Shown piece after piece: positions 12,506 to 18,387 of a DNA stretch of 64,000 nucleotides. Position numbers and translations under genes: made by a program. Position 1 is the first letter of the stretch, and each line of letters starts with the position of its first letter. The notes under the pieces were generated by a model. The model made no database searches. It worked only from the letters and a program-made list of their open reading frames with translations, and had not been told where the DNA came from. Source of the stretch: Onchidella celtica (lineage: Eukaryota; Mollusca; Gastropoda; Systellommatophora; Onchidiidae); NCBI GenBank assembly GCA_963931925.1, contig OZ007569.1, forward strand, positions 70,060,920 through 70,124,919. The letters run 5' to 3'.

Positions 12506-12643
12506 CTTTCGTGTTTAGATCTTTATTTTAGGAGGTTCGCTGCTCTTGGCTTTTACATCTGACTTTTCTTGTTTTTATTTTTCTTGTTCTTGTTTCCGTG
12601 TGTTTTGGTGGCAGGGATTAGTTTTTCAGAATTTTGCCCGGGC
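12506..12643 (-). mobile_element. SINE type B, 3' half, left of the 5.5-kb insertion
   Basis: On the minus strand this is the type B tail (GCGAACCTCCTAAAATAAAG near 12520-12545) and the AAAATTC side of the body, ending at GCCCGGGC. It continues at 18105. The outer flank TTTGTGAA (12498-12505) matches TTTGTGAA at 18388-18395, giving the SINE's own target duplication across the intervening element. Confidence 0.85.
12635..12643. other. target-site duplication, left copy
   Basis: TGCCCGGGC, identical to 18105-18113. The uninterrupted SINE consensus has this string once. Confidence 0.85.
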
Positions 12644-12677
12644 GCGAGAATCTTTTTTACACTGCGTTGCCGGAAAG
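12644..12677 (+). repeat. left terminal inverted repeat, 34 bp
   Basis: Starts GCGAGAATCTTTTTTACACT and ends GCCGGAAAG. It is identical, inverted, to 18071-18104; similarity stops abruptly after base 34. Confidence 0.93.
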
Positions 12678-12959
12678 GCGGTACTTCTTTGGAATCCCCG
12701 TGACTATTTATAATAACCGCACAGGCGATCATTACGTCACCGAATTCCGTGGGTAAAGCCTCCCGCTAACATGGCCATATTTTTTTATAACAGCCGAACA
12801 ACCGGTGAATTCCTTGGGTAATGCCCACTCTAATGTAATAGTCTAAAGAAATAGCCGCGAGAACGTGAAAATTTTCCTTGGTGGCAGAATGTTGTTGAAC
12901 ATACTCTTTGCGTCTGATCCCTCGAGACCCGCTCTCACACATTGCTGTGGTTCCCACCT

Positions 12960-13768
12960 GTGTGGTATAAATCTAGACTCTAGATCTAGATCTAGATTCT
13001 AGATTCAATTGTCTTTAGATATCTCATCATCAGTCAAAGCTCACACACCCTCATATCTGTGTGATAGAAATCTGGATCTAGATTTAATTATCATTAGGCT
13101 ACATATCTCAGCACTCATGGCTCACACTCTCCTGTTATGCAATATATAAATCTAGATCCAGATGTAATTATCTTTACAAATTACATATCTCATGACTCAA
13201 GGCTAACACTGTCATATCTGTGTGATATAAATCTAGATCTAGATCTAGATTCAATTGTCATTAGATATCTCATCACCCAAGGCTCACACTCTCATACCTG
13301 TATGGTACAAATCAAGATGTAGATTTAAATATCATTACACATATCTCATCACTCAAGGCTCACACTGTTATACCTGTATGGTATAAATCTAGATCTAGAT
13401 TTAAATATCATTACATATCTCATGACTCTAGGCTCCCACTGTCAGACCTGTGTGATATAAATCTAGATTTAGATTTCATTATCATTAAGTATCTCATGAC
13501 TCAAGGCTCCCACTGTCATACCTGTGTGATATAAATCTAGATCTAGATTTCATTATCATTAAGTATCTCCTGACTCAAGGCTCACACTCTCATATCTGTG
13601 TGATATAAATCTAGATCTAGATTTCATTATCATTACATATCTCATCACTCAAGCCTCACACTCTCATATCTGTGTGATATAGATCTAGATCTAGATCTAG
13701 ATTTAATTATCATGACATATTTCATCACTCAAGCCTCACACTCTCATATCTGTGTGGTATTGATATAG
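12960..13768. repeat. AGATCT-rich satellite array, about 74-80 bp unit
   Basis: About ten units, each with a variable (ATCTAG)n run, TTTAATTATCATTACATATC-like text, then CTCATCACTCAAGGCTCACA and CTCATATCTGTGTG. Unit length varies mostly by the number of AGATCT hexamers. It lies inside the 5.5-kb element, about 280 bp from its left end. Confidence 0.9.
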
Positions 13769-13779
13769 ATTTAATGGCT

Positions 13780-14388
13780 CATTTTGCTCAAACACAAGAC
13801 AAAGGGCCGTAATAATATAGGTGGCGCTCCAGAAGTAGAGGTATACTTTCAGGCACTTTCGCTTTATCCGACTCGATGTTATCAACATGGCGAACGTTGC
13901 AAGCAGGATTTATTTAAATCTGTGTGGATTCTTGAGCATGATTTGATCAACATTAGGTGTAGCTATGGTGTTTTCTTGCCTTATGATGCAAATTGCTGTA
14001 TTCACTGTGCATAACTTCATTTTTTAAAATGTGTTTATCATGTGATTTTAGGCATCAGCCATTATCTCGTTAAATGAGCTTATGTAAAGTCGGAGTTGTA
14101 GCCCTGGGTACCTGAAATTGAAATACGATTAAAAAAAATATTCTTTTTTATGCTTGCAATTCCCCGATAACCTATCGCCTTTCTATACTCTAATCCTGAT
14201 TGGCAGTGAAATAGATTATACTCCAGTGGACAGTGGGTGTGTTTTCTTAGTGTTTACTATGAAAACTTGTTTTATGTTGTGATTTGTATGAATGATTTAA
14301 CTTAAATGTTAACCAATTACTTAAAGTGATATTGATATTAACGAAACATATTTACTGACAGAAGCAATAATATAAATTATAACACAAA
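13780..14388. other. unassigned internal DNA of the TIR element
   Basis: No recognised gene. ATCAACATGGCGAACGTTGC at about 13879-13898 looks like a start-codon context with a short 19-codon ORF (MANVASRIYLNLCGF...). It might be a captured exon fragment, but nothing supports function. Confidence 0.3.
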
Positions 14389-14393
14389 CAAAT

Positions 14394-15774
14394 TGTCACG
14401 AGTGGAGTGAGCGATAGTTAATAATTACGGGGGGAAAGGAGGAGAGTAAAATTAACGCACGTAGACAAGTAAGAAAAGCGTGCATGTTATGAGTGGTGAG
14501 GGTCTGAATGAGGCGAAAGCGCTGTATTACTATTACTGCAAGTTAGAAGGTCCTACTGAACGGACGCTACTAAGAGCCCAGCGGGCGAACATAAGGGGAG
14601 CAGTCGGAAGACGGATGAGTGTTTTTCCAGTGATGTCTGGTAGGTAGAACGTTGATTGATTATTATGATTGATGTATTATATGATATTCGTCTATTACCA
14701 TGATGTAAATAAGTATATGTGAGGAATGTGGAAGTCCTTGATATTGGATATAGCAATGTGCGCCATGAGCGATAGATGAAAGTGAGTTCATGGAGTTGTA
14801 GCACGAGTGAGTATTGTGTACTCCGATGGAGGTGTGTTACCGTAAGATGTGTGGTGAGTGAAAGGTGAACTATTGTGTGTACGCTTCATGAGTTGTAAGG
14901 AGAGGTGGAGTGAATAGAAATGGAAGGGTGTTATACCAATGTAATGTTATTCTTGTAGGTGTCGGGGACGGGCCGAAGAGCCACCTCGATGAGCACAGGG
15001 GATAGGCCAGCATAGGGCCGGAGGCCATACATAGGCCAGAAGTGAGGCTGTCGGTGCAGGACAGTAGAGGCACATAAAGTCGTGGCAGTCAGGCCACGGA
15101 CAGGGACGTAGATATGAGAGTGAATGGGATAATATATTATTGCCATGTTGAGGGGCTAGTGAACTGATACTATATTATTGCCATGTTGATGGGCTAGTGA
15201 ACTGATACTATATTATTGCCATGTTGATGGGCTAGTGAACTGATACTATATTATTGCCATGTTGAGGGGCTAGTGAACTGATACTATATTATTGCCATGT
15301 TGATGGGCTAGTGAACTGATACTGTATTATTGCCATGTTGATGGGCTAGTGAACTGATACTGTATTATTGCCATGTTGATGGGCTAGTGAACTGATACTG
15401 TATTATTGCCATGTTGATGGGCTAGTGAACTGATAAGGTGTATGACAATAGGAGGGTGATATTGAGAGACTGCGGTGCCAGTGAATCATTAAGGTACTAT
15501 TAAGACCCTGAGGGGAGAGGCTGAGGCCGAAGTGCCTTTAGGAAGTAACTACCGGATCGTGGATCCGAGGAAGAGTGCATGTGAGAGTAAGGCCGTTGTA
15601 CGGCAGTTAATTTCAATAATATAATGTATGTAATGGCACTGTTATTCTTATCTTATATTTATGTATAATAATTGTGTGAGTCTGATGGGTTGTTCTGTTA
15701 AGTGTTAAACTTGTTCGTTCGTGATTGTTGTCCTGTCATAACTTATTACATCTCCCAGTCTGGGATTTGTGACA
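14394..15774 (+). mobile_element. solo LTR, 1381 bp
   Basis: It begins TGTCACGAG and ends TTTGTGACA, a 6-base inverted terminal repeat with TG...CA ends. It is flanked by CAAAT on both sides (14389-14393 and 15775-15779), a perfect 5-bp duplication typical of LTR retrotransposon integration. No primer-binding site, gag or pol lies between or beside, so this is a solo LTR left by recombination between two LTRs. It contains a 38-bp minisatellite. The orientation and the family (Gypsy-like being the commonest with 5-bp duplications) are not established; the plus strand is nominal. Confidence 0.75.
15133..15436. repeat. 38-bp minisatellite, 8 units, inside the solo LTR
   Basis: Unit ATACTATATTATTGCC followed by ATGTTGATGGGCTAGTGAAC and TG. 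The CCATG landmarks fall at 15143, 15181, 15219, 15257 and so on, exactly every 38 bases. Units differ only at a few positions (GAGG/GATG; ATAT/GTAT). Confidence 0.95.
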
Positions 15775-15779
15775 CAAAT

Positions 15780-16890
15780 TAGTTGGGAAATCTGAAACCA
15801 GGCAGGGATTGAGATTAAAAGTAGGTACTCAAAACTGATTTTGGAAAGTCGCTGTATAGACACTTAAATTAAGTTTTCCAATTGAAAGAACTCACTTTCC
15901 TAAGAATTTTGATACCAAATTTGTCTCTATATCTCAATATTTGGCAAAGTTATGATCATCTGAATTTTCATGAAACACCACCGGTGCGTTATCCATGCAA
16001 ACATACCAGACTGTAAACACATTCTATTTAATACAGACAACAAGCCCAAATTTTTTCAAGGGTTTAAATTATTAATAAGTGGTCTTTTATTTGAATCAAA
16101 AATGCCTCCACATCAAATTTCACTTTTTGACAAGGAAGACAAAAATGTCAAAATTTATCAGTAAGAAACACATCATTGTGTTGGTTATTCGAAGGCTTAT
16201 CCATAGAAGGATAAAAGAAATGGTTATTTTCAAAATCAACAGCTATATTGAAGCTTAATTTAGGAGCAAAAAATGCGTAATTTCGCAAATTTTAAAATTC
16301 CATACAAACATAAAATCGACATACACAGACATCAAATGATTTTCCGTAGCCCAGGCAAAAATATACCAAAATAAAGGTTAGTTATTCAATGTAATCCAAA
16401 TATCAGTAAATTGTAATTTTGAGTCTGTGTGATCAGATCCATATTGAAACGATATATAGGTGTTACTCAGCTCCCGCAGATAAGCGATTTTGGCCGTTAA
16501 AATGTCCGATAGTGACTACTTTGGGCTCATAATATTAAAGTTTTAACAGTAATTTCATGGAATTGAAAAATAACATTTGAAAGAGGTATTATTTTCAATG
16601 TTATTATTGGTATGTGGCATTTTAAGTTATTTTATTTTGGTGCTGAGCTACAGAGGAATAAGAACGGATCACGGCAGTGCCGATAACCACCGGTATTTTT
16701 TGCAAAAGGGAACAATGCAATAATCGGGCATTTTTGAGAGAAAACTACAGTTTATTATGCGCAGCCGTCACTTCATGGAGCATCAGTATAGGGCAAATCA
16801 AGCGGTCACTTCCGGGATCGGCTGCTGTTTGTTTACCTGCAGTTATTGCGCGCCCCCTATCGGGTTAAGGGGAAGTAATTTCAGCAAAAT
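15780..16890. other. unassigned internal DNA of the TIR element
   Basis: AT-rich, with no recognised coding region. A GC-richer patch at 16660-16870 carries several short ORFs without recognisable domains. Confidence 0.4.
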
Positions 16891-17250
16891 GAGCCATTAT
16901 CCTTACATATCTCAAGACCCACCCTCTCATATATGTGTGGTGCTGGCTAGATCTAAGCATAATTTTATCTTTCATCGCTCATGGCTCAATCTCTCATATT
17001 TACTGCTGCTGGTCAACAGCTCTGTGATAGGAGATTAGATTTAATTAGGTCTATGACTTCATATTTTATTATTCATATCTGTGTAATACAGATACATTGA
17101 ATTATTATGTTGTATCTCACAATTCAAGGCTCACTCTCTGTCTCTCGTACTGCTGCAATTCAACATCTGTTTGATCAGATCTAGATCTAACTGTGATTCC
17201 ATACCTCATCACTCAGGACTCACTTCCTCATACTAGATCTACTGCATTCT
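16890..17250. repeat. diverged second array of the AGATCT satellite
   Basis: About four to five decayed units with the same phrases as the 13-kb array (TTACATATCTC, GGCTCA..CTCTCAT, ATCTGTGTG.TA). Isolated (AGATCT)n runs follow at about 17494-17512 and 17643-17660. The two arrays lie on either side of the solo LTR. Confidence 0.7.
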
Positions 17251-17590
17251 ATCTCTGGTGAATTTTAATCAGTAGCCTATCTTGCCAGTGCATCATCTTC
17301 AATTCATTGTAGGCTACAGTGTAAATCTAGAACTGCTTAAAAGCAAATCAACAGGAAAGTTTTTAATTGTAACTGAGATTTATTAGTCGGTGACTTTATT
17401 GTGCGGTAAAAATGAAGACAACCGCATTCGCTAGACCTCTAATCCTACAGCTCTAACTAGCCTGCAGAGTGGAGAAATGTACATGGCACACATCTGATCT
17501 AGATCTAGATCTAGATCTAATTCTTCTGTGACGGAAATGACGGGCTTACTTTCATCACGTTATTCATAAATTATTAAAATTGACAACTAC

Positions 17591-17830
17591 CTGAGATGAA
17601 GTGCTCGGCACAAACAGAATGGGTCGACTCACCTTTTTTAATGTCTAGATCTAGAATCTAGATCTGCTGGTTGGTAGCTTGTCAGCCATACCACAGTCGA
17701 ACGACGTTCGGTCAATTCTTTCACTTCCATTCCTTTGTTTACACGAATGGTGGGGAATCTGACCAACTTTTATCCATCCTTTCCACCCCTGTCGCGCGTA
17801 GCAATTAACGATAATGCAGCTAGTAGGCAT
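17591..17830 (-). pseudogene. THAP-domain first exon, frameshifted
   Basis: On the minus strand, ATG at 17828-17830 opens MPTSCIIVNCYARQG, giving the paired cysteines Cys-x4-Cys. The +1 frame continues with TIRVNKGMEVKELTERRST and VVWLTSYQPAD, which carries the conserved Leu-x-Glu-Arg-Arg and Trp region. A third frame gives VCAEHFISG (Cys-x2-His at about 17601-17612), the closing zinc ligands and Phe. Directly after comes CAG/GTAGTT, a plausible splice donor (exon ends at 17591). Total length of about 80 codons equals a normal THAP domain. Two frameshifts, the second near an inserted AGATCT run, mean the copy is dead. THAP domains bind DNA and form the N-terminus of P-type transposases, but also occur in host genes, so a captured host exon cannot be excluded. 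Its place just inside the right TIR favours transposase. Confidence 0.82.
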
Positions 17831-17869
17831 TTTAGTTAACAAAACCGCTTCGATATAATTATCTCTAAG

Positions 17870-18060
17870 TTACACTAATCAGCTGATCCACCGGCCAAAC
17901 AATCGCGATGGCGGAAAAACAAAAGAAAAGCACAATGTGACGTCATGCGCATTCTACCTATAAGTTAGCCTATAGTTGGCCGATGACGGAGCGGGAAATG
18001 CCTCCTACTGCGCATGCGATATTTTATTATCGTCACAAAGGGTGAGGTGGAGACGTAGAG
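17870..18060 (-). promoter_or_regulatory. promoter-like segment upstream of the THAP exon
   Basis: TGACGTCA (CRE, 17938-17945) and the NRF1-like palindrome TGCGCATGCG (18009-18018), plus GATGGCGGAA near 17908, lie between the right TIR and the THAP ATG. This is where a transposase promoter would sit. Activity is inferred from motifs only. Confidence 0.45.
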
Positions 18061-18070
18061 CTTTGTTTGG

Positions 18071-18104
18071 CTTTCCGGCAACGCAGTGTAAAAAAGATTC
18101 TCGC
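18071..18104 (-). repeat. right terminal inverted repeat, 34 bp
   Basis: Exact reverse complement of 12644-12677. Confidence 0.93.
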
Positions 18105-18387
18105 TGCCCGGGCAGCGGCCTTATTCGGCCTGTACTTCTCGACTTTCAGCTGCCATGGTATCTTTAACGTACGCAACGTGCACACGGGGCCTCCGAGTTT
18201 TTGGTCCTTATCCGAGAAATCTAGGGGCTCGAGGCTACTTACCATAGGATCAAGGACAGGATCACCTCCTCCCCCCACCTTTCTCCCACACAAAAAAAAG
18301 TTCCAACATGCCTGCACCAACTGGGAATGGAACCCGGTACCTTCGGTATGATAGGCCAACACATTGCCTCTAAACCAACATGTGCCC
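18105..18387 (-). mobile_element. SINE type B, 5' half, right of the 5.5-kb insertion
   Basis: It starts with the duplicated TGCCCGGGC and continues through the SINE body and tRNA-like head (box A-like TGGTTTAGAGG, box B-like GGTTCCATTCC). It ends against TTTGTGAA (18388-18395), the partner of 12498-12505. Confidence 0.85.

Follow-up and report, generated by a model that had tools for sequence, protein, structure and literature searches.

A composite DNA transposon: a non-autonomous terminal inverted repeat element with a nested insertion and a probably foreign THAP exon

Results

The locus and its outer element

The window analysed here, a stretch of 64,000 nucleotides whose numbering is used throughout, contains a non-autonomous DNA transposon with terminal inverted repeats (TIRs), referred to below as the outer element. 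Its ends are exact 34-bp inverted repeats at 12644-12677 (forward strand) and 18071-18104 (reverse strand), each orientation occurring once in the window, and they are flanked on both sides by the 9-mer TGCCCGGGC (12635-12643 and 18105-18113), the target site duplication. An earlier note on this DNA had described these ends, the identical flanks and AGATCT satellites, and all three were recovered. The left arm (12678-12970, forward strand) leads up to an AGATCT-rich subterminal minisatellite (12971-13773) of about 8-10 imperfect 74-bp units, detected as a tandem array at 12987-13757 and differing in length among outer copies, and the right arm occupies 16898-18070 (forward strand). The whole composite measures 5,461 bp, and the outer unit without a nested central piece 2,339 bp.

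The insertion interrupts a dispersed repeat, whose two parts cover 12514-12634 and 18114-18351 as judged from the longest spanning match. When the flanks were joined with one copy of the 9-mer, 13 matches to other copies of the repeat (5 from the window and 8 from fetched loci) crossed the junction at 76-86% identity, confirming that the repeat reads through once the element is removed. Five of these matches begin at least 34 bp to the left of the junction, and most of the others only about 13 bp to the left, just outside the 9-mer. The label SINE for this repeat is that of the earlier note; ARAGORN with bacterial settings predicted no tRNA gene in the window.

We searched the 1.14-Gb eukaryotic genome with a 30-base TIR pattern, allowing up to 2 mismatches, and obtained 319 matches (155 + 164), compared to 0 for the reversed pattern used as a control. 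Among the TIR matches listed there were 26 inward pairs, with a spacing of 1.6-9.8 kb. The 9-bp duplication was exact in 20 of 23 two-ended outer copies and imperfect in three (one mismatch in L016, two each in L038 and L042). Target sites were strongly GC-rich: in all 21 good copies position 4 was C and position 6 was G, and 13 of them had CCSGG at the centre. Copies chosen for similarity were 1.3-1.5% from their consensus, and over the initial 300 bp the mean divergence was 1.3% (21 copies).

Search for a transposase of the outer element

The longest stop-to-stop frame was at most 163 aa in 22/23 two-ended copies, and a domain scan of five of the longest frames within such copies found no transposase domain. 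The two longest inward TIR pairs besides the window copy, L037 and L013, held no outer transposase: the former contains a reverse-transcriptase ORF (Pfam RVT_1, E = 1e-37) and a THAP element, and the latter a reverse-transcriptase ORF (RVT_1, E = 4e-14), with the left part of the pair lying outside the fetched stretch. Neither the MULE domain PF10551 (150 scored of 453 candidates) nor the P-type RNase H domain PF21787 (150 scored of 1,146) was seen within 10 kb of the 150 of 319 TIR matches compared, and the Merlin-type (IS1595-type DDE) domain PF12762 (146 matches; 150 scored of 218) was absent within 53 kb of 123 of the 319. The P-type domains scored were also absent near the THAP exons listed. 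Because only the best matches of each family were scored, and 123-150 of the 319 TIR matches were compared, this absence of linkage is weak evidence. Literature searches on 9-bp duplications with THAP, on mollusc P elements with THAP, on non-autonomous tandem-repeat transposons with a 9-bp duplication and on GC-rich MULE targets returned nothing on the outer family, and the accessible portions of PMC13359780 and PMC6446971 make no mention of THAP. The outer element bears out the non-autonomous TIR DNA transposon with a 9-bp duplication that had been proposed earlier.

The central piece is a separate nested element

Reading of 20 fetched outer copies showed the satellite continuing without a break across the position of the central piece in 16, and therefore 13776-16895 is a nested element of 3,120 bp within an outer unit of 2,339 bp. 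The four other fetched copies comprise one with a different satellite junction (L027), one with another insertion (L013) and two with no match (L012, L022). The single 5,461-bp transposon of the earlier note is consequently a composite; that note had named different boundaries in other copies as evidence against its reading, and this was found in part, the central 3.1 kb being missing there in the readable copies.

The nested element has GG...CC ends, carries a 38-bp minisatellite of 8.1 copies (15128-15435) and is flanked by AT duplications at 13774-13775 and 16896-16897. The 40 places scored included six further copies of it, 98-99% identical. The AT duplication lies in an AATT target in the window copy and in 4/4 other copies for which the fetched locus includes both ends, and AAT precedes the left end in 7/7 copies. 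The few window ORFs scanned gave no transposase or YqaJ match for this element. Its AT duplication, AATT target and GG start are those of ISL2EU elements (PHIS superfamily), whose marks, in the accessible part of PMC4482050, are an AT duplication in A-AT-T and a GG start. The outer locus L012 also contains a stretch 75% like the nested 3.1-kb family.

The THAP exon and its probable source family

On the reverse strand of the right arm, 17507-17961 matches a THAP-carrying element (THAP-E) at 68% identity over the first 433 bp of the latter, from its base 1, which places the THAP-E terminus at 17945-17961. Within it, a broken THAP exon extends over approximately 17590-17830 (reverse strand; limits read from the sequence), with CxxxxC and CAEHF in different frames, and is followed by a GT donor-like sequence. 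Its single window ORF had no Pfam match, and combining the pieces from different frames gave a THAP score of 17.5 bits (E = 0.0072), under the 23.9-bit cut-off. The THAP exon of the earlier note is real and THAP-derived, but frameshifted, with a best combined score below the cut-off. The remnant is present in 22/23 two-ended outer copies.

The THAP-carrying family is a 1.1-kb element with its own ends and AT duplications, and it is mobile separately from the outer element. The flank of one of its copies (L043) shows no match to the outer arm. The family starts with AGG and targets T-AT-A or T-AT-N, and in 5/7 copies the duplication may alternatively be TATA. At the locus of a long relative, G000:C9:39429620-39436096, a THAP exon and DDE_Tnp_4 in one orientation and YqaJ in the other lie within 6.5 kb; the left end of this relative is 97.4% identical to the short THAP element over 388 bp, and no right end was located in the 1.8 kb past YqaJ. 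A second same-strand pair of THAP and DDE_Tnp_4 occurs at C8, compared to about 0.2 pairs within 10 kb expected by chance. A THAP-DDE transposase with a YqaJ ORF is the gene set of ISL2EU (PMC4482050, in the text available). The family resembles ISL2EU in its AT duplication and in the apparent gene content of its long relative, but it differs in having an AGG start and a T-AT-A-like target instead of GG and A-AT-T; the short copies, like those of the nested 3.1-kb element, differ also in being non-autonomous.

The THAP homology begins precisely at the end of another mobile family, one whose long relative has the ISL2EU set. The THAP exon is therefore most likely a remnant of an old nested ISL2EU-type element and not evidence for the P superfamily, and the proposed membership in a THAP-bearing superfamily is not supported. 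No far end of this remnant could be located in the outer arm, which leaves one exact boundary in support of this nesting.

Discussion

The explanation that we consider highly probable as a whole is a nesting of three layers, with a THAP exon foreign to the outer element. The first layer is the 2,339-bp non-autonomous TIR element, which lacks its own transposase and would be moved in trans by one that recognises the 34-bp ends and cuts GC-rich sites with a 9-bp stagger, C-S-G (often CCSGG) lying at their centre. The second and older layer, shared by 22/23 two-ended copies, would be the ISL2EU-type remnant that supplied the broken THAP exon. The third is the 3,120-bp non-autonomous ISL2EU-like element that entered the satellite arm and that, at this position, was seen in no outer copy but that of the window. 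The ends, the duplications, the empty sites, the nesting of the third layer and the independent mobility of the THAP-carrying family are established by the comparisons above. We infer both cut-and-paste movement in trans for the outer element and the direction of the older nesting, the THAP element having entered the outer element and not the reverse.

The best fit for the outer family, by form only, is tentatively MULE/Rehavkus, at somewhat less than even probability, on the basis of the duplication length and the subterminal minisatellite. In the available parts of PMC6446971 and PMC10218199, Rehavkus elements have a 9-bp duplication, TIRs of 26-400 bp and a minisatellite near the terminus; the former gives duplications of 8-11 bp for MULEs and 9 bp for Rehavkus. 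The outer element is alike in duplication, TIR length and terminal minisatellite. In contrast, Rehavkus has a MULE-type DDE transposase and a PHD finger, whereas no transposase was found with the outer element, and the text seen of PMC6446971 confines Rehavkus to insects and annelids. The 9-bp duplication also sets the outer element apart from ISL2EU, to which it does not belong.

Mobilisation by a lineage other than MULE/Rehavkus, P and Merlin, possibly an undescribed one, appears unlikely but deserves serious consideration. The strong CCSGG-centred target preference is consistent with it, as is the absence of domains of the three tested families near the TIR places compared, although that absence is weakened by the sampling of domain and TIR matches given above. 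More specifically, an undescribed cut-and-paste lineage with 9-bp staggered cuts and a strong CCSGG-centred palindromic target specificity is distinctly improbable, yet it keeps some weight, given that the searches recovered no transposase of the outer element.

Another reading reverses the older nesting, so that the short THAP family arose from the outer element, its ends evolving in the outer arm before it spread alone. The homology between the family and the outer arm, together with an intact THAP exon less than 1 kb from an outer TIR in two outer copies, would agree with such an origin. However, those two cases resemble outer copies into which a THAP element has inserted; in L037 the intact THAP element lies next to the old remnant, and the sequence lacking this intact element is known from the other copies. 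Moreover, the left end of the THAP family is present at the C9 locus, where THAP, DDE_Tnp_4 and YqaJ occur together. We therefore regard this origin as very unlikely and retain entry of a THAP element into the outer element.

Still less probable is a P-superfamily origin, in which the outer element would be a decayed member and the THAP exon the first part of the transposase it once encoded. P elements have TIRs of a length close to 34 bp, and GC-rich targets are known for Drosophila P. The outer element is like them in its short TIRs, its GC-rich targets and its THAP-derived exon, which lies broken near one end in 22/23 copies, and P-type domains are abundant in the genome. Nevertheless, the duplication is 9 bp, and 8 bp directly at the ends was seen in 0/23 two-ended copies, whereas P and zebrafish Pdre2 duplicate 8 bp (PMC10983969, in the part available). 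In addition, the THAP stretch is traceable to another element, beginning at the terminus of the family tied to DDE_Tnp_4 and YqaJ, and PF21787 showed no linkage to the TIRs or THAP exons listed, a partial test (150/319 TIRs; 150/1,146 scored). Duplication length, THAP origin and lack of linkage together disfavour P-type membership. A chance inverted repeat or an assembly artefact, finally, has a negligible probability and is refuted by 319 TIR matches against 0 in the control and by matching duplications at independent sites.

Together, these results show that an exon left behind by one transposon can cause a second one to be misclassified, and that naming a superfamily calls for prior comparison of the empty sites of several copies. 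A notable trait of the non-autonomous outer family is its sharp preference for GC-rich targets.

Structure and insertion site of the outer transposon

The window occupies G000:C3:70060920-70124919 of a 1.14-Gb assembly. Its outer transposon ends in 34-bp terminal inverted repeats (TIRs) at 12644-12677 and 18071-18104 that match each other exactly, and TGCCCGGGC adjoins it on both sides; its net length in the window copy is 2,339 bp. These are the boundaries drawn in the earlier note, which also saw a repeat reading through the site once the element is removed, and both the boundaries and the structure are genuine. In an empty-site test, the flanks joined by a single 9-mer matched further copies of a dispersed repeat, with 13 matches (5 in the window, 8 in fetched loci) spanning the junction at 76-86% identity. 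In five of these the match extends 34 bp or more to the left of the junction, and in most others only about 13 bp. The earlier note took this repeat for a SINE; ARAGORN, under bacterial settings, predicted no tRNA gene in the window. Another outer copy (L009, G000:C6:63022270-63032269) seems to sit at the equivalent motif of this dispersed repeat, offset by one base; its flank match covers the right flank only (64 bp, 80%).

Using a 30-base TIR pattern with at most 2 mismatches, we obtained 155 forward and 164 reverse matches genome-wide, and none with the reversed control pattern. Comparison with the window left arm yielded 20 further outer copies, from the best 40 scored of 476 candidates, and both ends lay inside the fetched stretch in 16. 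We examined 23 two-ended copies, namely 16 of these first 20, the window copy and six picked for long-looking TIR pairs. The 9-bp duplication was exact in 20 of the 23, with one mismatch in L016 and two each in L038 and L042. Position 4 of the duplication was C and position 6 was G in all 21 of the better copies, and CCSGG was centred in it in 13 of 21 (binomial probability 3e-36 under a simple base-composition model rather than one of the local background). GC content was 83% in the duplications versus 49% in the flanks. Mean divergence from the consensus was 1.3% over the first 300 bp (21 copies) and 1.5% in the right arm (15 copies). Because the copies measured were selected for similarity to the window, the family may on the whole be older; the match in L040 and L041 is 78-91%.

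A nested ISL2EU-like element

The earlier note had treated the 5,461 bp as one element, a reading that did not survive comparison with other copies: in 16 of the 20 fetched outer copies the central piece is absent and the satellite continuous at its site. Of the other four, L027 had a satellite junction of another kind, L013 carried a separate insertion, and L012 and L022 yielded no match. The central piece is a nested element of 3,120 bp at 13776-16895, with six other copies at 98-99% identity among the best 40 scored of 289 candidates. Its family has GG...CC ends, the left one preceded by AAT in 7/7 other loci and the right one followed by ATT in the 4/4 loci that contain it, both as in the window. 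The marks of ISL2EU given in one account (PMC4482050) include an AT duplication within A/AT/T and a GG start; the nested element has both, and on these marks we class it as ISL2EU-like. No transposase match came from the few window ORFs that were scanned. A minisatellite at 15128-15435 (38-bp unit, 8.1 copies, 98% match) lies within this element.

Origin of the THAP exon

Broken pieces of a THAP exon lie near 17590-17830 on the minus strand, in different frames. The single window ORF of this region had no Pfam match, and the pieces read together matched THAP below the cut-off (E=0.0072). The remnant is present in 22 of the 23 two-ended outer copies, L017 being without it. At L037 (G000:C4:34087553-34096487) an intact THAP element is inserted beside the old remnant, and its exon scores over the cut-off (E=7e-9).

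Most of the best 150 scored of 6,243 genome candidates matching the L037 THAP peptide were 90-99% identical to it, and 129 of the 150, counted by row and some of them partial, had no stop. On contig C14, at L043, the THAP exon is carried by an element of 1,118 bp that has ends of its own, (AT)AGGTAGAATGCGCAT. Eight further copies were checked; the left end was found in seven, the right in six and both in five. AT flanks both sides in those five, L043 and L037, and the duplication can also be read as TATA in 5 of these 7. Similarity between the THAP element and the outer right arm sets in at the element's own first base (68% identity over 433 bp). The sequence before the L043 element found no counterpart in the outer arm, and that after it gave just two chance-level matches elsewhere in the arm. 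These sequence comparisons indicate that the THAP exon belongs to a separate mobile family. The exon, which the earlier note took as a superfamily mark of the outer element, most likely stems from this different, nested element.

The stretch G000:C2:69750907-69752021 pairs an outer-type TIR with an intact THAP exon 875 bp away, on the opposite strand; going by the coordinates alone, a THAP element seems to have inserted into an outer copy here as well. In short 1.1-kb copies of the THAP family the THAP exon remains intact but no transposase accompanies it; that their THAP-only product might act as a repressor is speculation.

The top DDE_Tnp_4 match among the best 150 scored of 1,393 candidates, C9:39433430-39433933 (+), has a THAP exon 3.8 kb upstream on its own strand, and YqaJ follows on the opposite strand at C9:39435635-39436096. 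The left end of this locus is 97.4% identical to the short THAP element over 388 bp; its right end did not appear in the 1.8 kb read past YqaJ. Contig C8 holds another THAP and DDE_Tnp_4 pair on one strand, separated by 7.0 kb; chance alone would give about 0.2 same-strand pairs within 10 kb. The ISL2EU gene set is described as THAP, DDE and YqaJ (PMC4482050). With THAP, DDE_Tnp_4 and YqaJ lying together at the C9 locus, the THAP-carrying family is, judged by domain content, probably of ISL2EU type.

Coding content and affinity of the outer family

The longest stop-free frame was at most 163 aa in 22 of the 23 two-ended outer copies, the exception being L037, with a 952-aa reverse transcriptase frame (RVT_1, E=1e-37). 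Five of the longest other frames in these copies were scanned and held no transposase domain, and the L020 frame matched just an unrelated peptide family, below the cut-off. No transposase of the outer element's own was seen in the frames scanned. A retrotransposon gag-pol-like ORF was noted by eye in the region of the L012 copy (G000:C1:83303482-83313481).

By form, the nearest described kind is Rehavkus, whose features in published accounts (PMC6446971; PMC10218199) include a 9-bp duplication, a short TIR and a subterminal minisatellite; the outer element is like it in all three. Of the 319 TIR matches, 150 listed places were compared with 150 scored MULE matches and 150 scored P-type matches, and no pair lay within 10 kb; likewise 123 TIR places had none of 146 Merlin-type matches within 53 kb. 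This negative is weak, as scoring was limited to the best matches of each family. Near one outer-type TIR, at C12:16893145, YqaJ and DDE_Tnp_4 both lie no more than 6 kb away, neighbours that we read, from coordinates and with the window as model, as probably a further ISL2EU insertion into or beside an outer copy. P-superfamily membership fails on duplication length and is also disfavoured by the origin of the THAP exon. The genome is very rich in P-type RNase H domains (1,146 candidates, the best 150 scored all over the cut-off), and runs of identical scores among them suggest recent copies.
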